From Streptomyces lincolnensis (GTDB lineage Bacteria; Actinomycetota; Actinomycetes; Streptomycetales; Streptomycetaceae): a stretch of DNA of 64,000 nt. This document shows positions 1-27,094 of this stretch, piece after piece. The stretch is taken from contig NZ_CP016438.1 of the NCBI RefSeq assembly GCF_001685355.1, forward strand, positions 1,612,001 through 1,676,000, read 5' to 3'. Made by a program: the position numbers and the translations under genes. The notes beneath the pieces are model-generated. The model did no database searches, was not told the DNA's origin, and saw nothing but the letters and a program-made list of their open reading frames with translations. How positions within the stretch are numbered: the stretch's first letter is position 1; each line of letters starts with the position of its first letter.

Positions 1-3000
1 AGGACGCGGATCGGCGTGAGTCTCGACAACCTGGTGCTCGACGGCCTCAGCATGATGACCGTCTTCACGGAGCTGGGCGTGCTGTACGCCGACCCGGGCG
101 CCGAACTCCCGCCCGTGGAACCGACGTTCCGCGACTACCTCGCCTCCGTGCGGCCCGCGCCCGAGACGCTGGCCGCCGACCAGGCGTACTGGCGCGACCG
201 GCTTCCCGAGCTGCCTCCGGCACCCCGGCTGCCGCTTCTGCGCGACCCCGCCGCACTGGGCCGCCCGCGCTTCACGCGTACTTCCGGGGAACTCGCCGCC
301 GACCGCTGGCGGCGGCTCAAGGAACGGGCTCGCGAGCACGGTGTCACCCCCTCGACGCTCCTGCTGGCCGCCTACACGGAGGTGCTCGGCACCTGGAGCG
401 AGAGCCCCGAACTCACCGTCAACCTCACCCTCTTCGACCGGCAGGAGATCCACCCGGACATCAACCGGGTCATGGGCGACTTCACCTCCCTCCTGCTCGC
501 CGCTCACCGTCCGCGTCCCGGTGAGGACTGGCTGACCCGGGTGCGCGGGTTGCAGGAGCAGTTGTGGCGCGACCTCGATCACCGCTCGGTCTCGGCGGTC
601 TGGGTGATGCGTGAGCTGGCCCGGACCCGCGGGCAGCGGGATGCGGCGGTGCCGGTGGTGTTCACCAGTGCGCTCGGTGTCGACGACGGCGTGTCCATGG
701 ACGCGCCCGCGGGGTTCCCGCCGCGTGTGTGGGGAGTGAGCCAGACCCCGCAGGTCTGGCTCGACCTCCAGGTCTACGAGGGCCGGGACGGGGCGCTGCG
801 CCACCAGTGGGACGCGGTGCGGGAGCTGTTCCCGAACGGGCTGGTCGAGACGTTGTCCGCCGCGTTCGACAAGCTGCTGCGTCATCTGTCCGACGCCGAC
901 TGGCGGCTGCCCCGGCCCGCGCTGCTGCCCGACGCACAGCGCACCGTCCGCGACCGGGTCAACGCGACGGGACGGCCGGACGGCCGGCGGGTCCTGCACA
1001 CGCCGTTCTTCGAGCAGGCCGCCGCCGATCCCGCCGCCCCCGCCCTGCTCTGGGGCGAGGACGGCGCCCTGACGCGCGGCGAGCTGCGGGAGCGGGCGCT
1101 GCGCATCGCCGCCGCGCTGCGAGGCCGCGGGGTCGCGCCCGGCGACACGGTCGCCGTGTCGCTGCCCAAGGGGCCCGAGCAGATCACCGCCGTGCTCGGC
1201 GTCCTCGCCGCCGGCGCCGCGTACGTTCCGGTCGGCGCCGACCAGCCGCCGGTACGACGCGACCGGATGCTGAGCGCCTCACGGGCCCGTTGTGTGCTGG
1301 ACGCGGAGTTCCTCTCCGGACCGCTGCCCGCCCCGCTGGCGACGCCCGTGGCCGCCGCCCCGGACTCCTGCGCGTACGTGATCTTCACCTCGGGCTCCAC
1401 CGGCGAGCCCAAGGGCGTCGAGCTGACCCACCGGGCGGCCGCCAACACCGTCGAGGACATCAACGCACGGCACGGCATCGGGCCGGGCGACCGGGTCCTG
1501 GCGGTCTCCGCGCTGGACTTCGACCTGTCCGTGTACGACGTCTTCGGGCTGCTCGGCGCGGGCGGCGCGCTCGTGCTCGTCACCGAGGAGGAGCGCCGGG
1601 ACGCCCAGCGCTGGCGGGACCTGGCCGCACGGCACGGGGTCACCGTCTGGAACTCGGTGCCGATGCTCCTGGACATGCTGCTCACCGCCTCCGCCGGGCA
1701 GGCGCCGCCGGAGCTGAGGCTCGCCCTGGTCTCCGGCGACTGGGTTCCGCTGGACCTGCCCGCCCGGCTCGCCGAGGCATCGGGGGGCCGCTGCCGGCTG
1801 ATCGCGATGGGCGGCGCGACGGAGGCCGCGATCTGGTCCAACGCGTACGACAGTACGGACGGGGCGCCCGAGGGCTGGCCGTCGGTGCCGTACGGGACAC
1901 CGCTGCGCGGCCAGTTGTTCCGGGTCGTGGGGCCGCTCGGCGAGGACTGCCCGGACTGGGTGCCCGGCGAGCTGTGGATCGGCGGAGCGGGCGTGGCCAC
2001 CGGCTACCGGGGCGATCCGGAACGCACCGCCGACCGGTTCGTGACCGACGGCGGGGAGCGCTGGTACCGCACCGGCGATCTGGGCCGCTACCGTCCCGAC
2101 GGGCTGCTGGAGTTCCTCGGGCGGCGCGACCACCAGCTGAAGATCCGCGGTCATCGCACCGAGCTCGGGGAGGTCGACGCGGCGCTGCTCGCCCAGCCGG
2201 GCGTCGGTCGTGCGGTCACCGTCGCGACCGGGCCGCGGGGGCAGCAGCGACTCACCGCTTTCCTGATTCCCGAAAGCCCCTCGGCCCTCCTGGATCTCTC
2301 CGAGATCGAGCGCCGTCTCGCCGACCACCTGCCCGCGCACGCGGTGCCCTCCGCGCTCGTGCCGCTGCCCGACGGGCTGCCGCTGACCGCCAACGGCAAG
2401 GTCGACCGTGCCGCGCTGACCGAGCACGCGGCCGGTCTCGGCGTGGTGTCCGGCGGGACACGGCAGCCGACGGGCCCGCTGGAGGATCTGGTCGCCGCCG
2501 CGTGGCGTGAGCTGCTGGAAGCCGAACAGGTCGGCAGGGACGACGAGTTCTTCGCGCTCGGCGGCGACAGCCTGCTCGCCACGCGGCTCGTGGCCCGGCT
2601 GCGCGAGGCCGGGGTACGCGGCGCGCGCATCGCCGCGCTGTTCACCCACCCGGTGCTGAAGGACTACGCGGCCACCCTGACCTTGGACGGCGAGAAGCCC
2701 GCCACCCAGGTCCTGGTGAGCGATCCCGCGCACGCGCACGATCCGTTCCCCGCGACCGACGTGCAGCGGGCGTACTGGATCGGGCGCACGGCACAGCTCG
2801 ACCTGGGCGGGGTCGGCTCGCACTACTACAGCGAGACCGACGAACCGTACACCGAGGTCACCGCGCTGGAACGAGCCTGGCGGCGGCTGATCGCACGCCA
2901 TCCCATGCTGCGGGCGGTCTTCGACGAGGACGGGCACCAGCGCGTCCTCACCGAGGCCGGGATACCGGACTTCACCATCCCGGTCCGCGACGGCGAGGAA

Positions 3001-4356
3001 CACCTCACCGCCCTGCGCGACGAGATGTCCCACCAGGTCCTCGACCCGGCCCGCTGGCCACTGTTCGACGTACGAGCGGTGCACTACACGGCGGCGGACG
3101 GCGAGCGGCGGACCCGGATCGGGGTCAGTCTCGACAACCTGGTCCTCGACGGTCTCAGCATGATGATCGTCTTCACCGAGCTGCGGCAGCTGCGCGAGAA
3201 CCCGGACACCGAACTCCCGCCGGTGGACGCGACGTTCCGCGACTACCTCGCCTCCGCCCGGCCGTCGGACGTAGCGGTGACGGCCGACCGGGAGTACTGG
3301 CGCGAACGGCTCCCGTCGCTGCCCTCGGCACCCCGGCTGCCGCTCCTGCGCGAGCCGTCGGAGGTCGGACGCCCGCGCTTCGTCCGCCGGGCCACGCACC
3401 TGCCGTACGCGCCATGGAGGCGGCTGAAGGAACGGGTCCGGGACTACGGCCTCACTCCGTCGGTGCTCCTGCTCGCCGTCTACGCCGAGGCGCTCGGCGA
3501 GCACACCGACAGCCCCGAACTCACCGTCAACCTCACCCTGTTCGACCGGCAGGAGATCCATCCGCACGTCAGCCGGATCGCCGGCGACTTCACCTCGCTC
3601 CTGCTCGCCGCCCACCATCCGCGGGCCGGGGAGTCCTGGCTCACGCGGCTGCGCGGGCTCCAGGCCCGGCTGTGGACCGACCTCGACCACCGGGCGGTGT
3701 CGGCGGTGTGGGTGATGCGGCAGCTGGCCCAGGAACGCGGTGCCGACGGGGCCGCGATGCCGGTGGTGTTCACCAGCGCGCTCGGCATCGACGACGAGCG
3801 GGCCCGGTTGCTGACCCCGCCGCACTGGTCCGTGTCCCAGACCCCGCAGGTCTGGCTCGACCACCAGGTGCTGGAGGACGCCGAGGGACTCCGGCTCACC
3901 TGGGACGCGGTGACCGGGCTGCTGCCCGACGATCTGCCCGGCTCCCTGATGGACCGTCAACTCGCCCTGCTGGACGAGCTGTCCACGGCGGACGACTGGG
4001 ACGCGCTGATCCTCGCCACGGGCCTCAGGGCCGGAGAACGGTCCGCCGCGCCCGTGACGACCGTAAAAGCCGACGCGGGCGGCCCGCCCCTCGGCGCCAC
4101 CGAGGAACTCGTCGCCGCGCTCTGGTCCGAGCTGCTGCCCGACAGCCCGCCCGCGGGCCGGGAGCAGGGCTTCTTCGCGGCCGGCGGCGACAGTCTGCTG
4201 GCCACCCGCCTCATCGCGCGGCTGCGCGAACGCACAGGTGTGGAGGTCCCGTTGAGGGAGTTCTTCACCGCCCCGACCGTGGCCGCGCTCGCCGCCGCGG
4301 CCGACGACCACACCGACCGCACCACCGATCAGAACTGGGAAGAGGGGGAGCTGTGA
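1..4356 (+). CDS. Metallophore NRPS, Cy-A-PCP-Cy-PCP (5' end outside window)
   Basis: This is the C-terminal 1451 residues of a large non-ribosomal peptide synthetase. The frame is already open at base 1, inside a heterocyclization domain. Order seen: remainder of Cy1 (DxxxxDxxS at D9-S17), an A domain (about 335-810, A3 core FTSGSTGEPKG near 461), PCP1 (Ser857 in LGGDSL), Cy2 (D1045-S1053) and PCP2 (Ser1398). My reading of the A pocket is D-L-Y-N-L-S-M-I-W, one residue from the cysteine code known from yersiniabactin and pyochelin enzymes. Each Cy domain condenses and cyclises Cys to a thiazoline. The layout equals yersiniabactin HMWP2, which starts with an aryl carrier domain; that part would lie upstream. 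The tail is acidic, ending NWEEGEL. The next gene starts inside its stop codon. Probable equivalent of coelibactin SCO7682 (recalled). Confidence 0.93.
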   Translation, partial: RTRIGVSLDNLVLDGLSMMTVFTELGVLYADPGAELPPVEPTFRDYLASVRPAPETLAADQAYWRDRLPELPPAPRLPLLRDPAALGRPRFTRTSGELAADRWRRLKERAREHGVTPSTLLLAAYTEVLGTWSESPELTVNLTLFDRQEIHPDINRVMGDFTSLLLAAHRPRPGEDWLTRVRGLQEQLWRDLDHRSVSAVWVMRELARTRGQRDAAVPVVFTSALGVDDGVSMDAPAGFPPRVWGVSQTPQVWLDLQVYEGRDGALRHQWDAVRELFPNGLVETLSAAFDKLLRHLSDADWRLPRPALLPDAQRTVRDRVNATGRPDGRRVLHTPFFEQAAADPAAPALLWGEDGALTRGELRERALRIAAALRGRGVAPGDTVAVSLPKGPEQITAVLGVLAAGAAYVPVGADQPPVRRDRMLSASRARCVLDAEFLSGPLPAPLATPVAAAPDSCAYVIFTSGSTGEPKGVELTHRAAANTVEDINARHGIGPGDRVLAVSALDFDLSVYDVFGLLGAGGALVLVTEEERRDAQRWRDLAARHGVTVWNSVPMLLDMLLTASAGQAPPELRLALVSGDWVPLDLPARLAEASGGRCRLIAMGGATEAAIWSNAYDSTDGAPEGWPSVPYGTPLRGQLFRVVGPLGEDCPDWVPGELWIGGAGVATGYRGDPERTADRFVTDGGERWYRTGDLGRYRPDGLLEFLGRRDHQLKIRGHRTELGEVDAALLAQPGVGRAVTVATGPRGQQRLTAFLIPESPSALLDLSEIERRLADHLPAHAVPSALVPLPDGLPLTANGKVDRAALTEHAAGLGVVSGGTRQPTGPLEDLVAAAWRELLEAEQVGRDDEFFALGGDSLLATRLVARLREAGVRGARIAALFTHPVLKDYAATLTLDGEKPATQVLVSDPAHAHDPFPATDVQRAYWIGRTAQLDLGGVGSHYYSETDEPYTEVTALERAWRRLIARHPMLRAVFDEDGHQRVLTEAGIPDFTIPVRDGEEHLTALRDEMSHQVLDPARWPLFDVRAVHYTAADGERRTRIGVSLDNLVLDGLSMMIVFTELRQLRENPDTELPPVDATFRDYLASARPSDVAVTADREYWRERLPSLPSAPRLPLLREPSEVGRPRFVRRATHLPYAPWRRLKERVRDYGLTPSVLLLAVYAEALGEHTDSPELTVNLTLFDRQEIHPHVSRIAGDFTSLLLAAHHPRAGESWLTRLRGLQARLWTDLDHRAVSAVWVMRQLAQERGADGAAMPVVFTSALGIDDERARLLTPPHWSVSQTPQVWLDHQVLEDAEGLRLTWDAVTGLLPDDLPGSLMDRQLALLDELSTADDWDALILATGLRAGERSAAPVTTVKADAGGPPLGATEELVAALWSELLPDSPPAGREQGFFAAGGDSLLATRLIARLRERTGVEVPLREFFTAPTVAALAAAADDHTDRTTDQNWEEGEL

Positions 4357-7300
4357 GCGCCGCCGAGCTGGTGTCACACCTGGCCACCGCTGGAGTCGAG
4401 TTGTGGGAGGAGGACGGCCGCCTCCGCTTCCGGGCACCGCAGGGGGCCCTCACCGACGAACTGCGCGAGCGGCTGAGCGCCGACCGCGACGCCGTACTCG
4501 CCCATCTGCGCGACCCGTTCGCCGAGCCCCTCGTACCCGACCCCGACGGACGGCACCTGCCGTTCCCCCTGACCGAGGTGCAGTCCTCGTACCTGCTGGG
4601 CCGCACGGACGCTTTCGCCTACGGCGGGATCGGCTGCCACGCCTACCTGGAGTACGAGCTGCCGGGCACCGTCCCGCCCGAACGGGCGGCGGACGCCTGG
4701 CGGGTGCTCGTCGAGCGGCACGACGCGCTGCGCACGGTGTACCACCCGGACGGCCAGCAGGTGCTCAAGGAGCTGCCGCCGTACGAGATACCCGTGGCCG
4801 GGGCCGAGCGGGCGGAGGAGATCCGCGGCGAGCTGGCGCAGCGGACGTACACCCCCGCTACGTGGCCGCTGTTCGACGTGCGGCTCACCCACTCCCCCGA
4901 ACGGCTGCTCGTGCACCTGTCCGTGGACCTGCTCGTGACGGACTTCTCCGGCGTGCAGCAACTGCTCGGGGAACTGGAGCAGTTGTGCCTGGAGCCGGAC
5001 CGGCCGCTGACACCCGTGCCCGTCTCCTTCCGTGACCATGTGCTCGCCGAGCGGCGGCTGCGCGACAGCGCCCGCTGGGCCCGGGACCGCGCCTACTGGC
5101 TGGACCGGCTCGACGACCTGCCGCCCGCTCCCGAACTCCCCGTGCTGACCGAGGAGTCGGGCCGCGAGGTGCGCTTCAGGCGGCTCGCCGACCGGCTGAC
5201 GTCCCAGGAGTCGGCGGCTCTGCGGCAGCGGGCCGCCGCCCGCGACCTGACCGTGTCCACCGTGCTGCTGGCCGCCTACGCCGAGGTGATCGGCCAGTGG
5301 AGCGCGAGGCCGCGCTTCACGCTCAACCTGCCGGTGTTCGCCAAGCGTCCGGTGCACCCCGACATCGGCCGGGTGGTGGGCGACTTCACCTCCGTGACGC
5401 TGCTGGCCGTCGAGCCCGACGCCGGGGCCGGGTTCGCGCGGCGGGCCCGTGCGCTCGGCGGGCGGCTCTTCGAGGACCTGGACCACGGGCTGTACTCGGG
5501 TGTCGAGGTGCTGCGCGAGGCGGCCCGCCGCTCGGACCGGCACACACTGATGCCGGTCGTGTTCACCAGCACGCTCCAGGGCACGGAGGTGCCGGCCACG
5601 GGTCCGGGCCGGGTCGGGTACGGCGTGACGCAGACCCCGCAGGTGTGGATCGACTGCCAGGTGATGGAGTCCGGCGGGGAGATCCTGCTGGGCTGGGACG
5701 TCCGTGAGGGGGTGCTGCCGGAGGGGCTCGCGGACGACGCGTTCGCCGCTTTCGCCGCTCTGGTGCGGGAGTTGGCCGTGTCCGACGCGCCGTGGGACGC
5801 CACCGACCCGGTGCGGGTGCCGCGGGCGCAGGCGGCCCGGCATTCGGAGGTCAACGCGACCGCGCGTCCGCTGCCCGAGGGGCTGCTGCACGAGCGGGTC
5901 CTCGCCGCGGCCGTCGCCCACGCCGACCGGCCGGCGGTCATCGCGCCCGACCGCACGCTCACCTACGCCGAACTCGCCGGATACGCCCGGACGGTGACCG
6001 CCCGGCTGCGGGCGGCGGGGGTGGCGCCGGGTGAGCGGGTCGCGATCGTGATGGACAAGGGCTGGGAGCAGGTTCCGGCCGTGCTCGGTGTGCTGGCCGC
6101 GGGCTGTGTGTACGTGCCGGTCGACACCGTCCACCCGCCCGCGCGCCGCGCGCTCGTGCTGGCCTCCAGCGGGGCGGTCGCCGTCCTCACGCAGACGCGG
6201 CTCGGTGAGGCGTACGAGCTGCCGACGATCGCCGTCGACGCCCTGGAGCCTTCGGAGGCCGTGGAGTCGCGTCGGGTGGACCCCGGCGAGGCGGCCTACA
6301 TCATCTACACCTCCGGGTCGACCGGTGAGCCGAAGGGCGTCGTGGTCTCGCACCGGGCCGCCCTCAACACGGTCGCCGACATCGACGAGCGCTTCGGCGT
6401 GGGTGCCGACGACCGGGTCCTGGGCCTCGCCCAGCTGGGCTTCGACCTGTCCGTGTACGACCTGTTCGGCCCGCTCGCGCACGGCGGGGCGCTGGTCCTG
6501 CCGGACCCGGAGCGCCGCGGCGACCCCTCGCACTGGGCCGACCTGGCGGCCCGGCACCGGGTGACCCTGTGGAACTCGGTGCCCGCGCAGCTCCAGATGC
6601 TGCACGACTACCTGGCCTCCGGCGCGGGCGCCGCCGATGTGGCCGGACTGTCGGCGCTGCGGCTCGGGCTGCTGTCCGGCGACTGGATCCCCGTACGGCT
6701 GCCGGACCGCATCCGCGCGCTGCTGCCGGGGCTGCGCCTGATCAGTCTCGGCGGGGCGACGGAAGCGGCGATCTGGTCCATCCACCACCCGATCGAGCAG
6801 CCCGTGGATCCCGGCCGGCCGAGCATTCCGTACGGCAGGCCGCTCGCCAACCAGACCTTCCATGTCCTGGACGACGCGCTGCGGCCCCGTCCGGACTGGG
6901 TGCCGGGCGAGCTGTGCATCGGCGGCAGCGGCCTGGCGCTCGGCTATCACGGTGACCCGGAGACGACCGCCCGGCGGTTCGTCACCCATCCCGTCACCGG
7001 GGAGCGGCTGTACCGCACGGGCGACCTGGGCCGGTGGCTGCCGAGCGGGGACATCGAGTTCCTGGGGCGCGAGGACGGGCAGGTCAAGATCCGCGGGCAC
7101 CGCATCGAACTCGCCGAGATCGAGGCGGCGTTGACGGGTCATCCGTCCGTCGGCGCGGCGGCGGTCCTGGCGGTCGGGGACGATTCGTTGCAGCGCCGGC
7201 TGGTGGCCTTCGCCGAGCCGGCGCGGGTCGCGGATGCCTCCCGGACGGGTGGGGCGGCCGAGGTTCTGGCCCGGCGGGCGCGAGAGGCGGCCGACGCGTT

Positions 7301-13915: not shown

Positions 13916-13932
13916 CCGTCGAGTGGAGAGAC

Positions 13933-14970: not shown

Positions 14971-14995
14971 CGGACGGGGACTCGGACTTACGGGC

Positions 14996-15044
14996 ATACG
15001 GCGACGGGCGGCACGGTGGGGAACCGTGCCGCCCGTCGCCGTAT
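14996..15044. terminator. Bidirectional terminator hairpin, perfect 22-bp stem
   Basis: Left arm 14996-15017 and right arm 15023-15044 are exact reverse complements, with a five-base loop GGGGA. It sits between the convergent methyltransferase and ABC transporter genes, ending one base before the ABC stop codon, so it can end transcripts from both sides. Confidence 0.9.
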
Positions 15045-15045
15045 T

Positions 15046-19564: not shown

Positions 19565-21143
19565 CGGCCGGCTCCTTCGCGGTCAGCTGGTCCCGGTCGC
19601 GGATGAGGGTCCAGGAGGCGAGGGCGGCGAGCAGGCTGATCGCGGCCGCCGCCAGGCAGATCGTCGCGAGGCCGCCGGTGAGTGCGGAGCGGGCCGCGTC
19701 CAGGACCGGTTCGCGCGCGGTGGCGGGCAGCGCGCGTTCGAGTTGCCCGAACTGCCCGGCGGCCACGGCGTCGCGGACCTGCTGGCGCATCCCTTCGGGG
19801 ACGTGCAGCGCGGCGAGTCGTGTGTCGTCCAGGTCGCTGTCGATGCGGGTGCTGAACACCGCGCCGAAGGCGGCCACTCCGGCCGCCGTGCCGAGCGGGA
19901 AGAAGGTGTTGGTCATCCCGGACGCCATCCCGGCCCGTTCCGCGGGCACGACCCCGACGGCGATGCCCATCAGCGGCGGGAAGGCGATCGCCCCTCCGAT
20001 GCCGAGGAGCACCAGGCCGGGCAGCATCACCAGCCAGGAGTCGTCGGGGCCGACCCGCGCCATGGTGAGCAGCCCGACCGCGGTGATGCCCGTGCCGAGC
20101 GCCATGACACCGCGCGTCGGCATCACCTTGAGGAACAGCCCGCTGAACGGGGCCACCAGCATGATGAAGGCGGTCATCGCCAGCAGCCGCAGCCCTGTTC
20201 CCAGGGGGCTGTGGCCGAGCATCCCCGACAGCCACAGGATCAGGTACGGCAGGACGCCGAAGCTGACGACCCGGCAGACGAAGCTGAGCACGATCGCGCC
20301 GGTGAACGACGGCACCCGCAGCAGCCGTACGTCGAACATCGCCGCGTCCCGGCGTCGCACCTCCCACGCCACGAACCCCGCGACGAGCAGCACCCCGCCC
20401 ACGAGCGGCAGCAGGGCGGACGCCGAGGTCCAGCCGTCCTCGGGGCCGGTCACCAGACCGTAGTTGAGGCCGAGCAGACCCCCGGCGGCGAACAGCAGCC
20501 CGCCGACATCGAACCGGCCCTGGGGTCGCGGCAGTTCACCGGCGCGGTCCGGGGGTACGCGCAGCAGGGTACCGACGACGATGAGGACGCCGACCGGCAG
20601 GTTGAGGTAGAAGATCCAGCGCCAGTCCAGGCCTTCCACGACGGCGCCGCCGACCAGCGGGCCGAGAGCCGCCGCGACACCGCCCGCCGCGGAGAACATC
20701 CCGATGGCCGACTGGCGGCGCCGGCCCTCGTACGCCCCGGCTATCAGGGCCAGCGCGGTGGACATCACCATCGCCCCGCCCAGGCCCTGGAGGGCGCGGC
20801 AGGCGATCAGCGTGCCGACGCCGGGTGCGAGGCCGCAGCCCGCCGACGCGGCGGTGAAGATCCCGACACCGGTCAGGAACAGGCGGCGCCGACCGTTGCG
20901 GTCGGACAAGGACCCGGCGGGCAGCAGGAGGGCGGCGAAGACCAGCGTGTAGGCGTTCACCACCCACTGGAGGCCGGTCAGTCCGGCGTCGAGGTCGGCG
21001 GCTATCTCGGGCAGGGCGACGTTGACGACGGTGATGTCGAGCGTCATCAGCACGGCGGCCAGTGACGTGGTGGCGAGCAGCCAGCCGCTGCCGGGCGCCG
21101 GGCCGGTCTCGGGCGACGGTTCCTGGCGTACGTCCTGGGTCAT
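19551..21143 (-). CDS. MFS drug/metallophore exporter (DHA2, 14 TM)
   Basis: 530 residues from the ATG at 21143, which has GAGGGG eight bases upstream; the in-frame ATG at 21164 has no ribosome-binding site. The family motif LDITVVNVALPEI lies in helix 1, with SDRNGRRR in the first loop and about 14 hydrophobic segments, as in EmrB/QacA proton-driven exporters. It is the first gene after the TetR regulator and begins the unit MFS, methyltransferase, ABC, ABC. Siderophore clusters often use an MFS pump for export, so secretion of the metallophore is the most likely job. Confidence 0.9.
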   Translation of the reverse strand: MTQDVRQEPSPETGPAPGSGWLLATTSLAAVLMTLDITVVNVALPEIAADLDAGLTGLQWVVNAYTLVFAALLLPAGSLSDRNGRRRLFLTGVGIFTAASAGCGLAPGVGTLIACRALQGLGGAMVMSTALALIAGAYEGRRRQSAIGMFSAAGGVAAALGPLVGGAVVEGLDWRWIFYLNLPVGVLIVVGTLLRVPPDRAGELPRPQGRFDVGGLLFAAGGLLGLNYGLVTGPEDGWTSASALLPLVGGVLLVAGFVAWEVRRRDAAMFDVRLLRVPSFTGAIVLSFVCRVVSFGVLPYLILWLSGMLGHSPLGTGLRLLAMTAFIMLVAPFSGLFLKVMPTRGVMALGTGITAVGLLTMARVGPDDSWLVMLPGLVLLGIGGAIAFPPLMGIAVGVVPAERAGMASGMTNTFFPLGTAAGVAAFGAVFSTRIDSDLDDTRLAALHVPEGMRQQVRDAVAAGQFGQLERALPATAREPVLDAARSALTGGLATICLAAAAISLLAALASWTLIRDRDQLTAKEPADVPA

Positions 21144-21179
21144 GGGCGAACCCCTCGCAGACATGGGTGACAGACGTGG

Positions 21180-21194
21180 GTATACGGCGTATAC
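21180..21194. promoter_or_regulatory. Putative TetR operator GTATACG-G-CGTATAC
   Basis: A perfect 7-bp inverted repeat around one base, 37 bases upstream of the MFS ATG. On the leftward strand a TATACC hexamer inside it could be the -10 element. It is the only strong palindrome between the TetR gene and the exporter operon. Confidence 0.6.
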
Positions 21195-21255
21195 ATGCGG
21201 GCAGACGGCAGCGACCCACCGCGTGTGATCCGTGTGGATCCGTTCGGACTCCGGC

Positions 21256-21921
21256 TCAGTCGGCCAGCAGGCCCCTGAGGAGGGCCTGGAGGCCGGGCAC
21301 GAACGCGTCCCGGGCGGCCGCCTGGCGCGGCGGCCGGGACAGCATCCGGGCCAGCCGGGGATGGTCGTTCATGCGGACTCGGGTCATGAGTTCATGCCGG
21401 GCGGGGAGGCCCTCGGGGCGCAGCGCGGGCAGGTACGACAGGTGGCCGAAGGTGTACCACCACAGCGCCCAGTAGGCGTCGGCCGCCTGCTCGTCGGTGA
21501 GCCCGGCCTCCTCCAGCAGGGCGAGCACATGCTCGACGAACCGCGAGGCGCGTGGCCCGAACAGTTCGCCGGCCTTGAGGACTTCGGTCACCCACGGCTC
21601 GGTCGTCAGATGGTCGTGCAGCGCGCGGAAGGCGAGGACCAGCCGATCCGAGGGCGATCCGTGGCCGTCCGGGAGCTCCAGCTGCTCGGCCACGTCGTCC
21701 AGCATCGCGACCAGCAGCTCGCGTTTGTCGCCCACGTGGCGGTACAACGCCATCGCCGTCACGCCGAGTTCCGCCGCGATCCGGCGCAGGGTGACCGCGG
21801 ACAGCCCCTCGTCGCGGGCCACCCGCCGGCCGGCGGCCACGACGGCCGCCCGGTTCAGCGGGACGCGTCGCTTCCCGGTCCCGGGGGACGTTCCGTCGCT
21901 GTCGGTCGTCGTGCTCGGCAT
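21256..21921 (-). CDS. TetR-family regulator of the exporter operon
   Basis: 221 residues. The N-terminus holds a TetR helix-turn-helix (LRRIAAELGVTAMALYRHVGDKRELL, about 46-71 in outline). The C-terminal half is rich in aromatic residues (YWALWWYTFGHLSYLP), as in TetR_C-type ligand pockets. It is read in the same direction as the MFS gene, 112 bases ahead of it, with a palindrome in the gap. A repressor that releases the exporter operon when it binds the metallophore or a precursor is the simplest reading. The gene begins 37 bases after the stop of the ABC importer and could also be reached by read-through from the Zur-box promoter. Confidence 0.87.
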   Translation of the reverse strand: MPSTTTDSDGTSPGTGKRRVPLNRAAVVAAGRRVARDEGLSAVTLRRIAAELGVTAMALYRHVGDKRELLVAMLDDVAEQLELPDGHGSPSDRLVLAFRALHDHLTTEPWVTEVLKAGELFGPRASRFVEHVLALLEEAGLTDEQAADAYWALWWYTFGHLSYLPALRPEGLPARHELMTRVRMNDHPRLARMLSRPPRQAAARDAFVPGLQALLRGLLAD

Positions 21922-21957
21922 ACCGCCACCCTAGGGGGTGTTCCGAAGGTTCCCCTG

Positions 21958-24456
21958 TCACCTTGTCCCGTCCTCTCCGGCGGCCCGCGCCGGGTGCGGC
22001 AGCGCCGCCACCAGTGCTCGGGTGATGTCGTGTTCGGGCCTGCTCAGCACCCGGGACGCCGGTCCCGTCTCGCGGATGCGGCCGTCGTGCAGTACCGCCA
22101 CCCGGCCGCCGAGCCGGGCGGCGACCGACAGGTCGTGCGTCACCATGACGACGGCGAGTCCCAGCTCCGTGCGCAGGCGGGCGATCAGTTCGGTGACCGC
22201 GGTCGCCACCGACGGATCCAGCGCGCTGGTCACCTCGTCGCAGAGCAGTACCTCGGGGTCCGCGGCCAGTGCGCGCGCCAGGGCCACCCGCTGCCGCTGA
22301 CCGCCCGACAGCGCCCCCGGCAGGCGTCCGCCCAGCTCCGGGTCCAGTCCCACCTGCGCCAACAGGCGTTCCACTTCGGCCGGTTGCCGCTCTGCCGGTA
22401 TGTCGGGGCGGAAGGCGAGCGGGCGGCCGACGATCGCGGCCACGGTGTGGCGGGGGTTGAGCGAGGCGTACGGATCCTGGGGGACGAGCTGCACCCGGCG
22501 ACGCTGTCCGGGATCGCGGTCGCGCACGTGTCGGGCGAGCGCCTCGCCGTGCAGCCGTATCCCGCCGTTCGTAGGGGCGTCGAGACCGGCGAGACAGCGC
22601 AGCAGGGTCGTCTTGCCGCAGCCGGAAGGACCGACCACGGACAGGCAGTCCCCCGGATCGAGGGCGAACGACACACCGTCGAGTACGCGTTCTCCGCGGA
22701 CGAGGGAGAGCTCCGACGCGCGCAGGAGCGCATCGTCGCCCGTCCGCTCCTCGTGGTCTGCCGCCGAGGCGGGGACGACAGGCCGGGCGGCCGCGACCAG
22801 CGCCCGTCCCCGCTCGCTGGCCGGTTCGGCCAACACGGCTTCGGCCGGCCCGAGTTCGACGATCCGCCCGCCGTCCATGACGGCCACCCGGTCGGCCACG
22901 CCGGCGACCTGGCCCAGGTCGTGGGAGACGAGCAGGACCGCCGCGCCCGTCTCGCGCCGCATCCGGGTCAGGTCGGCGAGGAACGCGGCGGAGGTCACGG
23001 TGTCGAGGGCACTGGTCGGTTCGTCGAGCACCAGCAGCCGGGGTTCCACGGACAGGGCCACCGCCAGCGCGACCCGTTGGCGCTGGCCGCCGGAGAGCTG
23101 GTGCGGCCGACGGTGGACGACCTCGTGCGGGCGGTCGAGTCCCGCGAGCAGCAGCGCACGCTCGGCCCGTTCCGCCCACCGCTCCTTCGGTACCCCGCGG
23201 GCCCGCAGCACTTCCCCGATCTGGGCGTCGACGCGAAGGTGGGGCGCCAGTGCGGTGCGCGGGTCCTGGGCGACGTATCCGCACATCGCGGCGCGCACCC
23301 GCCGAAGGCGCCGCTCGTCCAGCCGCAGCAGGCGGTGTCCGTCGAGCCGTACGTCACCGCCCGTCGGTCGCAGCCCTGGTCCGGTGTGCCCCAGGGCGGC
23401 CAGGGCCAGGGTCGTCTTGCCGCTGCCGGACTCCCCGACCACGGCGAGGAGTTCACCGGGTGCGAGGTCGAGGTCCACGTCCTCCAGCACGCGGTGCCCG
23501 TCGTCGCTCTCGACGCTGAGCCCGCGCACCGAGAGCAGGGAACCCGGGGTCCCGGGCGCCTCCGAGTCCACCGTCGTCACCGGCTCCGGCCGCGGCCGGG
23601 CGGCCGGCTGCTGCGGGCCGGGGAAGGCCGCGTCCAGCAGGAGGTTCACCGAGAGCAGCAGGACGAGGAGCAGGGCGGCCGGGACGAGGACCGCGAGGGG
23701 CTGGAGGGTGAGGCCGTCGCGGTTCTCCAGAACCATCAACCCCCAGTCTGCGGCGGGCGGTTGGGCACCGTATCCGAGGAAGGCGGCGGTGGCGACGACC
23801 GTCACCGCCCCGAGGAACCGGACGCCGGCGTCGGCGGCCAGCACGGGCAGCAGGTTGGGCAGCACCTCGCGCCCCAGCACACTCACCGTGCGCTCGCCCC
23901 GGGCGACGGCGACCTCCACATAGTCCTGGGCGAGGATGCGCAGCGTGGCCGCCCGCACCACGCGGACGCTCTCGGGCAGCAGGACGAGCCCCGAGGCGAG
24001 CGCCACGCCCGCCGTGCCGCGCCCGGTGGCCACGACCACCACGCTCAGCAGCAGGAAGGCGGGCAGTCCCAGCAGCACGTCGGCGAGACGCAGGACCAGC
24101 GTGTCGGTCCAGCCCCTGCGCCAGGCGGCGAGCATGCCGAGCAGCGCGCCCAGGACACAGACCGCGCCCGTCACCGCGAGCGAGGTCAGCAGCAGGGACC
24201 GTCCGCCGGACAGCACCCGGCTCACCACGTCGGAGCCCAACCGGTCGGTGCCCAGGGGTGCTTCGGCGCTTCCGGGCGCGTAGGGAATGTCCACGGCGTC
24301 CGTCACGGCGTGCGGGGCGAACAGCGGCCCCAGCAGCGCGACCACGCCGACGAGTATCAGGACGGCCAGCGCGAGCCGGCCGCGTCGGCGCCGCCGTGGT
24401 GACCGGGCGGCCCGGGGAACCGCGGTGGCCGGCGGACGTTCGGAGAGGAGGGTCAT
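21958..24456 (-). CDS. Fused ABC importer: DppC-type permease plus two ATPase domains
   Basis: 832 residues in one chain. I placed the start at the ATG 24456, overlapping the permease stop by four bases; the longer open frame upstream is a shadow of that permease. Residues ~25-275 form a DppC/OppC-like permease. After a Pro-rich linker come ATPase 1 (Walker A GESGSGKTT about 340, LSGGQRQR, LLVLDEPTSALD) and ATPase 2 (GPSGCGKTT about 607, LSGGQRQR, LLCDEVTSALD). In the peptide/nickel family these are normally three proteins. With the separate DppB-type permease and the lipoprotein this makes a complete importer. Walker B of ATPase 2 reads DEV instead of DEP or DEA. Context next to the metallophore genes suggests uptake of the zinc complex. 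Confidence 0.9.
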   Translation of the reverse strand: MTLLSERPPATAVPRAARSPRRRRRGRLALAVLILVGVVALLGPLFAPHAVTDAVDIPYAPGSAEAPLGTDRLGSDVVSRVLSGGRSLLLTSLAVTGAVCVLGALLGMLAAWRRGWTDTLVLRLADVLLGLPAFLLLSVVVVATGRGTAGVALASGLVLLPESVRVVRAATLRILAQDYVEVAVARGERTVSVLGREVLPNLLPVLAADAGVRFLGAVTVVATAAFLGYGAQPPAADWGLMVLENRDGLTLQPLAVLVPAALLLVLLLSVNLLLDAAFPGPQQPAARPRPEPVTTVDSEAPGTPGSLLSVRGLSVESDDGHRVLEDVDLDLAPGELLAVVGESGSGKTTLALAALGHTGPGLRPTGGDVRLDGHRLLRLDERRLRRVRAAMCGYVAQDPRTALAPHLRVDAQIGEVLRARGVPKERWAERAERALLLAGLDRPHEVVHRRPHQLSGGQRQRVALAVALSVEPRLLVLDEPTSALDTVTSAAFLADLTRMRRETGAAVLLVSHDLGQVAGVADRVAVMDGGRIVELGPAEAVLAEPASERGRALVAAARPVVPASAADHEERTGDDALLRASELSLVRGERVLDGVSFALDPGDCLSVVGPSGCGKTTLLRCLAGLDAPTNGGIRLHGEALARHVRDRDPGQRRRVQLVPQDPYASLNPRHTVAAIVGRPLAFRPDIPAERQPAEVERLLAQVGLDPELGGRLPGALSGGQRQRVALARALAADPEVLLCDEVTSALDPSVATAVTELIARLRTELGLAVVMVTHDLSVAARLGGRVAVLHDGRIRETGPASRVLSRPEHDITRALVAALPHPARAAGEDGTR

Positions 24457-25433
24457 CGCGTGTGCCCCCGTACGGGTTCGAGGAGGTGTACGGCGACATC
24501 GCCGGCGAGGTTCGCGGCCACCGCGACGGCCGCGCCGAGCAGCGCCACCGCCTGCACCACCGGGACGTCCCGGCCGGCCGTGGCGTCCACGAGGAGAGCG
24601 GCGAGCCCGGGGAAGCCGAACAGCGACTCCGCGACCAGCGCCCCGCCCAGGAGGTAGGCGACGGAACGGGCGAGCACCGGGACGGCGGGGCCGAGCCCGG
24701 CGGGCAGCACGTACCGTACGGCGACCCGGAGTTCGGGCACGCCGTTCAGCCGTGCCGCGACCACCGCCGGGGACCGGGCGGCCTCGGCGACCCCGGCCCG
24801 TACCAGCCGCAGGTTCTGCGCCAGGCACACGGACACCAGCGTGAGCACCGGCAGGACCAGCACGGACGGTTCGTCCAGCGGTCCCTGTCCGGCGCCCAGC
24901 AGGGACACGGCGGGCAGCCAGCCGAGCCCGGCCGCGAACACCGCCATCAGCAGGGCGCCCGTGACGAACTCCGGGACCGCCGCCAGCCCCAGGGCGGTGC
25001 CGGAGACGATCCGGTCGCCGCGCCGCCCGGCCCGCAGCCCGGCCCACAGACCGAGTCCGACGGCCAGGGGCACCAGGACGGCCAGGGCGGCGAGCCCCAG
25101 GACGAGCGAGTTGCCGAACCGGTCGGCGATCAGCTCGCCCACCGGCCGCCCGTTGGCGTAGCTGGCGCCGAAGTCGCCGCGCACGGCGTGCCCGAGCCAG
25201 TCGAGGTAGCGCAGCGGCGCGGGCCGGTCCAGGCCCAGTTGTGCGCGCAGCGCCTCGACGGCACCGGCCGGCGCCTGGGGTCCGAGCCGGGCGGTGGCCG
25301 CGTCGCCGGGGGCGGCCTCGGTGGCGGCGAACACCAGGACGGTCACGACGAGGAGCACGAGCAGCGCCCCCGCCGTCCGTCTCAGGGCCCACCGCACCAG
25401 GCCGGGCCACGCGGGCATCGGCTTCTGCTTCAT
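24453..25433 (-). CDS. Peptide/nickel-type ABC permease (DppB-like)
   Basis: 326 residues from the ATG at 25433, overlapping the lipoprotein stop by four bases. The first helix is followed by the LGLDRPAPLRYLDWL and GDFGASYANGRPV segments characteristic of DppB/OppB proteins, and five to six hydrophobic helices are visible. The near C-terminal LLGGALVAESLFGFPGLAALLVDA region (about 255-280) is the conserved family block. It should form the membrane channel with the permease part of the fused downstream protein. Confidence 0.92.
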   Translation of the reverse strand: MKQKPMPAWPGLVRWALRRTAGALLVLLVVTVLVFAATEAAPGDAATARLGPQAPAGAVEALRAQLGLDRPAPLRYLDWLGHAVRGDFGASYANGRPVGELIADRFGNSLVLGLAALAVLVPLAVGLGLWAGLRAGRRGDRIVSGTALGLAAVPEFVTGALLMAVFAAGLGWLPAVSLLGAGQGPLDEPSVLVLPVLTLVSVCLAQNLRLVRAGVAEAARSPAVVAARLNGVPELRVAVRYVLPAGLGPAVPVLARSVAYLLGGALVAESLFGFPGLAALLVDATAGRDVPVVQAVALLGAAVAVAANLAGDVAVHLLEPVRGHTR

Positions 25434-26995
25434 GCGAGGAAGGCGTCCCGCAGGCTGGGATAGTCGGCGTAACCGCGCGCCTTCACGCCGTGCGCCTTCG
25501 CGGCCGCGCCGGACACCGTCGGCACCCGCGCGAACAGCGCGTCGCCGCCGTGCTCGTGCAGGTGCTCCTGGACGTCGGCCACCCGCGCCCGCCGCTGGTC
25601 CTCCCGCGTGGCACGGTTCATGGCGGCGATCAGCGGATCGAGGGCCTGCGCCCCCTTGCTGCCGGTCAGCGGGTAGGCGGCCGTGGAGCCGTAGTAGGTG
25701 CGGATCATCAGCGGCAGCGGGTTGGGGTGGTACGCGGAGGTCTGGATCGGCGTGCTGAGGATCGTCTTGAAGTCGCTGTAGTAGTCGGCGGCGGGGACCT
25801 TGTCGAGCGTCGCCCTGATCCCGGCCTTCGCGAGCATCGGCACCATCGCGGTGGCGCTCTCCTCGGTGCCGTAGTCGTAGTCCGAGGTGCGGATGCTCAC
25901 CGTGAGCCCGTCCTGTCCGGCTTCCTTGAGGAGCGCCGCCGCCCGCTCAGGGTCGTACGCGGTCTGCGCGATGCCCGTGTCGAAGTACGGCTGGTGTGCG
26001 CCCACGAGGTCGTTGCCGATCTCGCCCTGACCGAGCGTCACGGTACGGACGAGGGACTCACGGTCGAGGGCGAGCTTCACGGCGCGCACCACGCGGGCGT
26101 CCGTGAACGGCTTCAGCCCGAGGTTCATCGGGAGGTTGAGGTCGACCCACAGGTCCTTGGGCGGCGTCTCGATGCGCAGCGCGCTGTTGCCGCGTTCGGT
26201 GCGTACGGCGGTGAGGGCGAGCCCGCCGGCGTAGTGGAACTGACCCGACTTCAGTCCGCCGAGCCGGGCCGCCGCGTCGGTGACGGAGACGAGCTCCAGC
26301 TCGTCGAGGTAGGGGCCGCCGACTGCGCGGTCCCAGTAGTCCTCCCGTGGCACCAGCACGCTGCTGCGTCCCGCCTGCCACTTCTTGAGCACGTACGGTC
26401 CGCTGCCCGGGGCCTTGGCGAGATTCTTGGTCCCGTCGGGAAAGACGAACATGGAGTGCGCGAGCGCCAGGTCGAAGAAGCCGTCGGCCATGGTGAGCGG
26501 CAGTTCGAGGGTCCGCGCGTCGCGGGCTCGGGCGTTCTTGAGGTCGAGGTGCGCGAGGAACCCGCTCTGCGGGCTGCGCTTCTCGACGAGGGTGCGCAGA
26601 CTGAACAGCGCGTCACGGGCGGTGAGTTGACGCCCGTCGCTGAAGGTCACACCCTTCCTGATCCGCACGGTCCACGTGGTGGCGTCGGAGTCGGGTTCGA
26701 CGGCTTCCGCCAGCCGCCACACCGGTCTGCCGCCGTCCAGTTCGCCGAGGGTGTCCCAGACGACCCGGGCCCGCACGTAGTCGATGCCGACGCCCGCGGC
26801 GAGCGTGGGGTCGGTGGACTCCGTGCTCCCCCCGATGAACGCCGCCCGCAGTTTCCCGCCCTTGCGGGGAGCGACGGACGCCTCGGCCCCGGCGGGCTTC
26901 TCGCCGTCGCCTCCACAGGCCGCCAGCAGCCCGCCGGCGGCGACCGCCGCCGCCCCTCCCGCGACACCGCGCAGCGCGGCACGCCGAGTTATCAC
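25430..26995 (-). CDS. Solute-binding lipoprotein of peptide/nickel ABC importer
   Basis: 521 residues starting at GTG 26995 with GGGGAAGA upstream. The signal peptide has twin arginines (TRRAALRG) and ends in a lipobox LLAAC with the lipidated Cys27, so it may be a Tat-exported lipoprotein. The mature part matches extracellular solute-binding family 5 (WTVRIRKGVTFSDGRQLTA; DARVVRAVKLALDRESL). Members bind oligopeptides, nickel or metallophore complexes. It is the first gene of the importer operon, directly behind a Zur-box promoter, which argues for a zinc-metallophore ligand. In S. coelicolor I recall a binding-protein importer set (SCO7677-7680) beside coelibactin. Confidence 0.9.
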   Translation of the reverse strand: MITRRAALRGVAGGAAAVAAGGLLAACGGDGEKPAGAEASVAPRKGGKLRAAFIGGSTESTDPTLAAGVGIDYVRARVVWDTLGELDGGRPVWRLAEAVEPDSDATTWTVRIRKGVTFSDGRQLTARDALFSLRTLVEKRSPQSGFLAHLDLKNARARDARTLELPLTMADGFFDLALAHSMFVFPDGTKNLAKAPGSGPYVLKKWQAGRSSVLVPREDYWDRAVGGPYLDELELVSVTDAAARLGGLKSGQFHYAGGLALTAVRTERGNSALRIETPPKDLWVDLNLPMNLGLKPFTDARVVRAVKLALDRESLVRTVTLGQGEIGNDLVGAHQPYFDTGIAQTAYDPERAAALLKEAGQDGLTVSIRTSDYDYGTEESATAMVPMLAKAGIRATLDKVPAADYYSDFKTILSTPIQTSAYHPNPLPLMIRTYYGSTAAYPLTGSKGAQALDPLIAAMNRATREDQRRARVADVQEHLHEHGGDALFARVPTVSGAAAKAHGVKARGYADYPSLRDAFLA

Positions 26996-27065
26996 TGGGT
27001 CTTCCCCTCGTATGGCTCATGCACGGACGCCGGGCGGTGGGGCACCCGGGTATACAACGTAGACC

Positions 27066-27094
27066 AGCCTAGACGGCACGACAATCATTTTCAA
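27066..27094 (-). promoter_or_regulatory. Promoter of the ABC importer operon
   Basis: Read on the minus strand: TTGAAA at 27094-27089, a 17-base spacer, and TAGGCT at 27071-27066, a good vegetative sigma (HrdB-type) promoter about 70 bases before the lipoprotein GTG. The -35 element lies inside the Zur box. Confidence 0.75.
27079..27093 (-). promoter_or_regulatory. Zur box TGAAAATGATTGTCG
   Basis: Thirteen of 15 bases match the palindrome TGAAAATGATTTTCA known for the zinc repressor Zur in Streptomyces. It overlaps the -35 region of the importer promoter, so zinc-loaded Zur would block RNA polymerase. It is also a striking A/T island in very GC-rich DNA. Confidence 0.78.

Follow-up and report, generated by a model that had tools for sequence, protein, structure and literature searches.

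Among the described systems closest to the locus studied here, pyochelin is a compound of two rings. Its synthetase PchE has an MT-like epimerase inserted in the first A domain (PMC8807600), and yersiniabactin HMWP2 and equibactin EqbE likewise combine an aryl start and an E domain with carriers served by another module's A domain, although there a single A domain is described as serving all three carriers (PMC3672683). Coelibactin (SCO7676-92) was predicted from the Streptomyces coelicolor genome and its gene set is described as repressed by Zur (PMC5472717), but accounts of 2012 (PMC3430247) and 2023 (PMC10127202) give it as not isolated, so that zinc ligands are a predicted product of Zur-controlled thiazoline NRPS clusters. 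Zinc complexes of this general kind are known from Nocardia, namely transvalencin A and uniformides A and B; as described in PMC11364655, uniformide A contains a benzene ring and four five-membered rings with two heteroatoms, with N4, S3 and Zn, and its partial structures are those of transvalencin A. Sorangibactin, from Sorangiineae MSr11367, shares with the present locus an SrbE-type dehydrogenase, an imide reductase, a P450, salicylate genes and a TE with a cysteine nucleophile (PMC10127202). For mupirochelin of Pseudomonas, a phenol, an oxazoline, thiazolidines and a thiazoline are predicted, built from four residues (PMC10080011). Our search found no paper on Zur-linked heterocyclization-domain zinc metallophores of Streptomyces, which is not a claim that none is in print.

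Here we analyse a 64,000-nucleotide stretch of the Streptomyces lincolnensis genome (the window). Judging by its gene content and regulatory sites, the locus at its left end probably encodes a Zur-repressed zincophore of the coelibactin/transvalencin kind, made by a lengthened assembly line.

Gene content of the locus

The locus, at 1.60-1.64 Mb of a 10.3-Mb genome, is a complete salicylate-capped NRPS cluster that is cut by the window edge, its left part reaching about 8 kb further left. The window contains the following features.

1-4356, plus strand: C-terminal part of NRPS1 (Pfam, domain map, HMM map in relatives, A codes)
4353-9767, plus strand: NRPS2 (Pfam, domain map, A code, TE motif)
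9764-10912, plus strand: saccharopine-dehydrogenase-like NADP-binding protein, SrbE-type (PF03435)
10909-12033, plus strand: thiazolinyl imide reductase (TIGR01761, 340.8 bits against a cut-off of 188.8; Irp3-like C domain)
12030-13139, plus strand: cytochrome P450 (PF00067; alignment of five family members)
13136-13915, plus strand: type II thioesterase (TEII) with GHSMG (PF00975, 180.5 bits; sequence)
13933-14970, plus strand: O-methyltransferase, Methyltransf_2 plus dimerisation domain (PF00891, 146 bits; codon-position substitution pattern in five genomes)
15046-16794, minus strand: ABC half-transporter, IrtB/YbtQ-like (Pfam; PDB matches)
16791-18605, minus strand: ABC half-transporter, IrtA-like (Pfam; PDB matches)
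18602-19564, minus strand: small SAM methyltransferase (Methyltransf_25/12)
19551-21164, minus strand: predicted MFS efflux pump (PF07690, 178.7 bits)
21256-21921, minus strand: TetR-family regulator (TetR_N, TetR_C_1)
21958-24456, minus strand: fused DppC permease and two ABC ATPases (DppC-D-F), 832 aa, of a predicted peptide/nickel/metallophore-type importer (BPD_transp_1 and two ABC_tran stretches)
24453-25433, minus strand: DppB-type permease (BPD_transp_1)
25430-26995, minus strand: SBP_bac_5 solute-binding protein (PF00496, 206 bits; PDB relatives AapF, NikA)
27079-27093, minus strand: Zur box TGAAAATGATTGTCG preceding the importer operon, with two mismatches to TGAAAATGATTTTCA

Every element named in the original prediction is present by Pfam/NCBIfam and domain maps: the imide reductase, the embedded MT, the P450 and the TEII, together with a transport half comprising the MFS gene, the small methyltransferase, the ABC half-transporter pair, the SBP_bac_5/DppB/fused DppC-D-F importer and a Zur-like box. 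Its list lacked the saccharopine-dehydrogenase-like gene (9764-10912), the O-methyltransferase (13933-14970), which is the final gene of the biosynthetic operon, and the TetR gene (21256-21921). Twelve plus-strand frames within 13878-27094 match no Pfam family and were discarded as wrong in strand or frame, and a scan of 1-32000 against Rfam gave nothing at the gathering threshold.

The same prediction had placed the locus within coelibactin/pyochelin logic and proposed an aryl cap, a claim that it tied to the presence of starter genes upstream. The analysis supports both proposals, and the lack of aryl starter genes that would have refuted the cap does not apply. Left of the window we found a salicylate synthase (TIGR03494, 458 bits against a cut-off of 325), an aryl-AMP (salicyl-AMP) ligase with the GCPG cysteine of the salicylate type, and an ArCP that is part of NRPS1.

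Architecture of the assembly line

The full line reads ArCP-Cy-A-E-PCP-Cy-A-PCP-Cy-PCP // Cy-A-MT-PCP-TE in the domain map, with four Cy domains bearing DxxxxD, four PCPs after the ArCP and three A domains; the Pfam lists for the NRPS genes contain no PKS domain. NRPS1 is 3062 aa long, and its start lies 4832 bases outside the window on the left.

Left of the window: ArCP, Cy1, A1, inserted PchE-type E domain and PCP1 of NRPS1
1-978: Cy2 (start 362 bases left of the window)
997-2190: A2
2473-2679: PCP2
2743-4014: Cy3
4090-4305: PCP3
NRPS2, in order: TubC_N docking, Cy4, A3, embedded MT, PCP4, TE

The embedded MT of NRPS2 has an intact GAGTG, and Cys replaces Ser in the TE motif GYCLGG. The insertion in module 1 was considered as a further embedded methyltransferase and rejected as such on its SAM motif, VVGARGGRG, and on its best PDB match, the PchE epimerase (7emy, 74.3 bits); H1204 of PchE is kept, and E1234 is absent at the aligned column.

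Module 3 is without an A domain, only 25 residues separating Cy3 from PCP3. If this module were unloaded and bypassed, or one early module silent, the product would be a three-ring, coelibactin-like compound, whose three residues would match the three A domains; sorangibactin, reported to have three heterocycles before its cap, comes from NRPSs of seven and five domains (PMC10127202). We consider this unlikely, as Cy3 retains DxxxxD in all five genomes, the window's own copy also has the remaining Cy motifs and the serine of PCP3, and pairwise dN/dS lies well below 1 (0.24-0.29 for Cy3, 0.20-0.33 for PCP3). Moreover, the A-less modules of HMWP2 and EqbE are presumed to receive their residue from an A domain elsewhere in the line (PMC3672683). 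The four Cy domains would thus encode four rings, rather than the three Cys-derived rings originally proposed, and the first would probably stem from Ser or Thr and not from Cys. Four rings are not forced, since the mupirochelin report indicates that a product can differ in ring count from the modules of its line; its four residues are proposed to arise by iteration of a three-residue line, whereas here the fourth ring would have a module of its own (PMC10080011). The description of sorangibactin's seven- and five-domain NRPSs includes no epimerase, and by our reading of it leaves no place for an A-less fourth module (PMC10127202).

The claim that both NRPSs are Cys-specific holds for the two A domains in the window, A2 (DLYNLSMIW) and A3 (DLYNLSLIW), and fails for A1 to its left (DLYNLGLIH). 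Two positions of the A1 code differ from the Cys codes, with G for S and H for W, and the same holds for 19 of 22 readable first modules. The A1 code suggests Ser or Thr as substrate, giving an oxazoline, a probable reading drawn from this pair of positions, from relatives and from comparison with a Thr code taken as background; PMC11253843 yielded no such code. In the first module of sorangibactin, Ser is reported to be used although Cys was predicted (PMC10127202).

Distribution of the family and origin of module 3

The dehydrogenase is found at 83% identity or more in five of 392 sampled Streptomyces genomes, its own included (83-89% in the other four), and identity falls to 42% in the match that scores next. 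These five carriers share the block from NRPS1 to the SBP gene by gene, and all five genomes mapped in full have the same NRPS architecture. NRPS1 ends in the same way in seven of the eight family loci that carry names (the last is too short to tell), and the A-less module 3 is present in all nine readable assemblies, a count from which L094, L095 and L097 are left out as repeats of G097, G318 and G220. Organisms of the family include S. regalis, S. lanatus, S. muensis and S. albicerus.

In the tree, Cy2 and Cy3 of four family members form one clade (100/100) in which each is monophyletic, which argues for a duplication within the lineage. We rejected the descent of Cy3 from a line with four A domains that later lost the one in module 3, because the tree joins Cy3 to the family's own Cy2 and not to Cy3 of G421, G151 and G289. 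The whole Cy-A-PCP module may alternatively have been duplicated and the A domain then lost within the lineage; our preferred origin of module 3 would be duplication of a Cy-PCP pair.

Comparison with coelibactin-type loci

Likeness to coelibactin was assessed through three loci with fetched flanks (G118, G195 and G346), which we call coelibactin-type on the strength of their module number (three), their A1 code and their Zur site, and not through the S. coelicolor record itself. They share with the present locus the salicylate starter genes, the ArCP, Cy-A-PCP modules and a terminal Cy-A-MT-PCP-TE with GYCLGG, as well as the saccharopine-dehydrogenase-like protein, imide reductase, TEII, IrtAB-like pair, SBP/Dpp importer and Zur site at NRPS1. 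However, they have three elongation modules in two NRPSs (Cy-A-PCP twice // Cy-A-MT-PCP-TE) and the A1 code DLWQLGLVH, in contrast to the four Cy domains, A-less module 3, inserted E domain and DLYNLGLIH code found here. In this comparison the MFS, TetR and O-methyltransferase genes, the E domain, the A-less module and what is probably another type of P450 occur only here.

The P450 has an intact heme motif (FGKGPHACLG), but, as seen in an alignment of five family members, its I-helix has AGVPN where AGxET is expected, and lacks the usual acid-Thr pair. It is 29% identical to a P450 of G118 over 72% of the query. The PDB entries that we take to be those of CYP105N1, the type expected of a coelibactin cluster, are not among the best 60 of 177 PDB matches to this P450. 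Both observations speak tentatively against a CYP105N1-type enzyme.

The original prediction regarded the YbtPQ-like pair and the peptide-type importer as additions, a view ruled out by the flanks of all three loci, which contain SBP_bac_5, DppB, DppC, DppDF and both ABC half-transporters; the MFS pump does set the family apart from them. Among the half-transporters in the PDB list, the 15046-16794 product is best matched by IrtB (364.5 bits) and YbtQ (357 bits), and the 16791-18605 product by IrtA (394.6 bits). Read by eye, the N-terminus of SBP_bac_5 has a twin-arginine signal and a lipobox (LAAC).

The transport genes could also serve export or self-protection more than nutrition, were the product a secreted, transvalencin-like zinc-complex antibiotic. 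A title in the reference list of PMC11364655 calls transvalencin A a zinc complex antibiotic, tetroazolemycin zinc complexes are described as weakly antibacterial (PMC3707159), and efflux systems typically include MFS and TetR genes. Against this, an SBP, a Dpp-type permease and ATPases under their own Zur box form what appears to be an uptake system, and the same transport set recurs in the three coelibactin-type loci. We hold an antibiotic role to be very unlikely.

Probable regulation by Zur

Within the window alone, three matches to the Zur pattern against 1.55 expected are not significant, 21 of 100 shuffles having as many. Across the whole 10.3-Mb genome, only six places match the Zur box (motif as described in PMC5472717) with at most two mismatches, and two of them lie at the cluster's two promoters; other top sites precede znuA, L31/CobW genes and a second znuA. 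Both promoter sites are conserved in 5/5 compared genomes with at most three mismatches, and the site before NRPS1, present in all five family genomes, is found in 7/7 coelibactin-type loci at the same threshold. Eleven related loci from other families, of which some are incomplete, contain no Zur box within three mismatches in their 313,597 bases. Zur control of the cluster, as predicted from these sites, is well supported, and their genomic rarity and conservation uphold the earlier proposal of a Zur-controlled zincophore.

An iron siderophore with incidental Zur boxes would be in keeping with the discovery of sorangibactin in iron-deficient culture (PMC10127202) and with the nearest half-transporters of the ABC pair in the PDB list, the siderophore importers IrtAB and YbtPQ. 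It seems very unlikely to us, given the two promoter sites that rank among the genome's six best and recur in all five compared genomes but in none of the eleven other loci. No IdeR/DmdR-like iron box was found within three mismatches at the locus, and the best in each of the five family genomes has 7 of 19 mismatches, on which basis iron regulation was rejected. Zinc as the metal of a Zur-repressed zincophore would follow from this regulation; the chemistry alone is silent, iron siderophores such as sorangibactin being built by similar logic.

Predicted product and pathway

A scaffold of a phenol, an oxazoline and three Cys-derived rings would fit the zinc complexes transvalencin and uniformide. 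These are described as a phenol with four five-membered heterocycles that contain three sulphurs between them and so leave one ring sulphur-free, a pattern with which the domain count and codes here agree (PMC11364655). Uniformide A carries chlorine, whereas no PF04820 (halogenase) match lies near the locus, the genome's hits being at 0.21, 3.77, 5.90 and 8.71 Mb. A class-wide search for the Nocardia transvalencin cluster gave one candidate, G421, in which four A domains are combined with a serine TE and an E domain is lacking; its halogenase-like hit is confined to model positions 1-66, in a family that also matches in 5 of 14 control genomes, and its link to transvalencin is only suggestive.

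Based on this analysis we can outline a possible pathway. Chorismate would be converted to salicylate, adenylated and loaded onto the ArCP of NRPS1, and Cy1 would couple it to the A1-activated residue, which is probably Ser or Thr, to form an oxazoline whose alpha carbon may be epimerised by the inserted PchE-type E domain. Three cysteines would then be added by Cy2, Cy3 and Cy4 as thiazoline or thiazolidine rings, with PCP3 loaded by A2 (or by A1 or A3) in the manner of HMWP2. Ring reduction and methylation would fall to the imide reductase and the methyltransferases, there being one reductase against four methyltransferase candidates (one embedded, two tailoring genes in the window and one Zur-boxed gene upstream); the originally proposed pattern, one ring both reduced and N-methylated, would be one possible outcome. 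The P450 might modify, perhaps dehydrogenate, the chain or the product. Release by the cysteine-nucleophile TE would give a free acid or a chain capped by a thiolactone, as for sorangibactin; the MFS pump would export the product, and the zinc complex would re-enter through the SBP/Dpp-type importer, the IrtAB-like pair or both.

Taken jointly, these elements lead us to a tentative picture, which as a whole is somewhat more likely to fail in some part than to hold. A Streptomyces zincophore lineage would have gained a dedicated A-less fourth module through Cy-PCP duplication inside NRPS1, making a phenol-oxazoline-tris(thiazoline/thiazolidine) zinc ligand and reaching a transvalencin-like scaffold independently of four-A-domain lines. 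A TE with a cysteine nucleophile would release this ligand, which may then be a thiolactone, and a P450 that lacks the canonical oxygen-activating I-helix pair would modify it. The family would thereby link a Zur-controlled, coelibactin-type gene set to the scaffold of a real zinc complex, that of transvalencin and uniformide, and would offer a case in which an assembly line gains a ring when a Cy-PCP pair is duplicated and no A domain comes with it.

A conserved cluster with its aryl starter genes

The cluster is real and well delimited, is conserved among few Streptomyces (5 of 392 sampled genomes, S. lincolnensis included), and is a variant of the coelibactin/transvalencin kind. The source genome is one 10.32-Mb contig, of which the window takes bases 1612001-1676000. 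The original prediction called for aryl starter genes to the left of the window, and both a salicylate synthase and an aryl-AMP ligase are present in L010, the 20 kb fetched there.

Main genes of the cluster (window positions unless marked L010; L010 position minus 20000 gives window position)
L010 11957 to about 13309, minus: salicylate synthase (TIGR03494, 458 bits, cut-off 325)
L010 13396 to about 15039, minus: aryl-AMP ligase (PF00501, 255.8 bits)
L010 15168 to window 4356, plus: NRPS1, 3062 aa
4353-9767, plus: NRPS2
9764-10912, plus: saccharopine-dehydrogenase-like gene
10909-12033, plus: imide reductase
12030-13139, plus: P450
13136-13915, plus: TEII
13933-14970, plus: O-methyltransferase
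25430-26995, minus: SBP_bac_5 protein, N-terminus twin-arginine and lipobox-like by eye
minus: fused DppC-DppD-DppF, 832 aa

Stop/start overlaps chain NRPS1 through TEII, and the O-methyltransferase starts 17 bases after TEII. The top NCBIfam match of the ligase is a DHB ligase (668 bits, under that family's cut-off of 723.55); its stretch AHNFALGCPG carries a GCPG cysteine, which we take to be at the S240 position. Cysteine replacing S240 is the proposed salicylate signature of such ligases (excerpt of PMC11253843). Outside the cluster, beside the importer promoter, lies an IcmF-like fused B12-binding/MeaB GTPase/methylmalonyl-CoA-mutase-type protein (27215-30445).

An assembly line with an A-less third module

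The NRPS order is ArCP-Cy1-A1-E-PCP1-Cy2-A2-PCP2-Cy3-PCP3 // TubC-Cy4-A3-MT-PCP4-TE, complete in all five mapped genomes of the family, that is, Streptomyces clusters alike in this block (G000, which is S. lincolnensis, G097, G007, G318 and G220). Module 3 lacks an A domain, Cy3 and PCP3 lying only 25 residues apart. DxxxxD is retained by each of the four Cy domains in 5/5 genomes; the remaining Cy motifs and the serine of PCP3 were identified in the copy that the window carries. The same NRPS1 end occurs in seven of eight named family loci (L094-L100: S. regalis, S. lanatus, S. afghaniensis, S. muensis, S. lincolnensis L4, S. niveiscabiei and S. albicerus), the eighth, L101 from S. swartbergensis, being too short to tell. 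L094, L095 and L097 were taken as the same assemblies as G097, G318 and G220, giving nine distinct family assemblies.

An A-less Cy-PCP in the NRPS frame was found in 10 of 72 named loci (the seven family loci, two Phytoactinopolyspora and one frame in S. rugosispiralis), a count in which two loci gave no call and the NRPS1 end of some, such as L104, L111, L119 and L147, lay outside view. Such modules are thus not unique to the Streptomyces family, and NRPS1 of three loci from other actinobacterial families (L197, L198 and L200, from G492, G714 and G576) even ends in two A-less Cy-PCP units. Among 55 Cy domains placed in a tree, Cy2 and Cy3 from four family members fell in one clade (100/100), each set monophyletic and separate from Cy2/Cy3 of other four-module lines, which we read as a probable duplication within the family's lineage. 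Pairwise dN/dS against four relatives was 0.24-0.29 for Cy3 and 0.20-0.33 for PCP3, compared with 0.18-0.29 for Cy1, 0.14-0.18 for Cy2 and 0.17-0.22 for Cy4; module 3 is thus kept, Cy3 slightly less tightly than Cy2.

The domain inserted in A1 was rejected as a working methyltransferase, having lost the glycine-rich SAM motif (it reads VVGARGGRG) and being closest, among solved structures, to the PchE epimerase (74.3 bits, E 1.2e-19). PchE H1204 (excerpt of PMC8807600) is kept in 7/7 compared sequences; E1234 is not at its aligned column, and in 7/7 a glutamate stands at the column counted as PchE D1230. The MT embedded in A3 has an intact GAGTG in 5/5 genomes.

Probable Zur regulation, and transport genes

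The Zur consensus TGAAAATGATTTTCA, searched over the whole 10.32-Mb genome, gave 6 distinct places at up to two mismatches and 24 at up to three; reversing the pattern gave 4 hits instead of 30. The cluster has two of the six best sites, one where NRPS1 and the ligase diverge (1607123), the other at the promoter of the SBP gene (1639079; window 27079-27093). A further site outside these six, at 1603103 with three mismatches, lies before a methyltransferase gene (L010 11177-11938). Both promoter sites recur in 5/5 family genomes with 1-3 mismatches, and a site lies near NRPS1 in 7/7 coelibactin-type loci and in G271, another sampled genome; none was found in eleven loci of other families, some partial (313,597 bases). 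Taken alone, the box is not significant in the window (3 matches, 1.55 expected, as many in 21/100 shuffles), with 2 matches in L010 (0.69 expected, 29/200 shuffles); the strength of the evidence is genome-wide rank and conservation. The published motif is tGaNNatSatNNtCa, and Zur represses SCO7676-92 (excerpt of PMC5472717).

Elsewhere, genes at five non-cluster stretches were family-tested. Site 3437390 is followed by znuA, 5667693 by ribosomal L31 and CobW, and 7786852 by an MFS gene; 7087492, one of the six best, adjoins a second SBP_bac_5 gene, a candidate metallophore uptake system; and 1256367-1258475 holds three Zur-like sites, where 1256367 and 1258461 are followed by an ArsR gene and another znuA. 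The best site, 2131349, precedes an apparent metal-ABC permease, read by eye. Near the salicylate synthase lies a SufS-like class-V aminotransferase/cysteine-desulfurase-type gene (L010 8868-11066). It and the Zur-boxed methyltransferase have relatives (about 71% and 70%) in genome G346, where they lie immediately upstream of a coelibactin-type cluster, with a palindromic Zur-like box (three mismatches) before the methyltransferase; none were found in stretches fetched around four close relatives' clusters.

One minus-strand run encodes SBP_bac_5, DppB, the fused Dpp protein, TetR, MFS, a small methyltransferase and two ABC half-transporters. Among the best 60 PDB matches, the nearest half-transporters to the ABC pair are IrtB (364.5 bits; YbtQ 357) and IrtA (394.6 bits); two-domain eukaryotic ABCB proteins score at least as high because both halves match. 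Relatives of the SBP are peptide, nickel and metallophore binders (AapF 84.7 bits, NikA group about 63). The original prediction regarded the transport half as an extension beyond coelibactin, a view that did not hold: three of three coelibactin-type flanks carry the same set (SBP 34%, DppB 49-50%, DppC 40-41%, DppDF 42-45%, ABC1 50%, ABC2 51-54%), which is therefore common, alongside salicylate synthase (58-59%) and ligase (57%). A single flank of the three gave an MFS match (31%), and none matched TetR or the O-methyltransferase (E 1e-12, half coverage). Regulation and transport genes together suggest a zincophore role, the chemistry being predicted.

Predicted product and comparison with transvalencin

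The A1 code, DLYNLGLIH, departs from Cys codes at two positions (301, S to G; 331, W to H), and G and H there are presumably the residues of the threonine code. Among the 22 loci whose first A domain could be read, 19 have this pair and three (G151, G289, G390) a plain Cys code. A2 (DLYNLSMIW) and A3 (DLYNLSLIW) are of the kind printed over positions 235-330 for the Cys domains of HMWP2, BacA, AngR, PchE and PchF (excerpt of PMC3672683). The first A domain of sorangibactin was predicted to take Cys and takes Ser (PMC10127202, section 2.3). From the two code positions and this precedent we consider, with moderate confidence, that A1 would take Ser or Thr and hence form an oxazoline.

The NRPS2 TE motif is GYCLGG, cysteine replacing serine; among 24 loci with a TE, 17 have GYCxGG and seven GAHxG[GA]. 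In those seven coelibactin-like loci (G005, G040, G148, G221, G227, G304, G329) the nucleophile position is neither serine nor cysteine, and the six with NRPS1 in the stretch gave no Zur box at up to three mismatches. The TE of sorangibactin requires its cysteine, and that compound bears a homocysteine thiolactone (PMC10127202, section 2.3), a precedent by which a thiolactone cap is possible in the S. lincolnensis product. The same section reports that SrbH oxidises the oxazoline to an oxazole. The P450 here keeps its heme cysteine and has AGVPN replacing AGxET in the I-helix in 5/5 family members, two P450s near other clusters having AGWETT and AGFETT.

Uniformide A, C23H26O6N4S3Cl2Zn, has a benzene, four five-membered two-heteroatom rings matching those of transvalencin A, and an O-Zn-O bond (excerpt of PMC11364655). 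With three sulphurs for four rings, one ring is sulphur-free; we infer it to be an oxazoline adjoining the phenol, helped by the statement that the aryloxazoline mupirochelin is homologous to uniformide/transvalencin (excerpt of PMC10080011). With four Cy domains, one Ser/Thr and three Cys, the S. lincolnensis line would give the same ring count.

A class-wide sample gave the dehydrogenase at E 1e-25 in 29 of 394 genomes. One genome, G421 (family f4, genus g31), encodes ArCP-Cy-A[DLYSMGLIH]-PCP-Cy-A-PCP-Cy-A-PCP // Cy-A-MT-PCP-TE[GYSVGG], with several Zur boxes, one perfect, and, some 2.4 kb away from NRPS1, a halogenase-like PF04820 match of 30.6 bits that covers just model positions 1-66 (PF04820 also matches in 5/14 control genomes). 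We regard it as no more than a candidate for a cluster of the transvalencin type. Should this reading be true, four-ring zinc ligands would have arisen at least twice, via different assembly-line changes.
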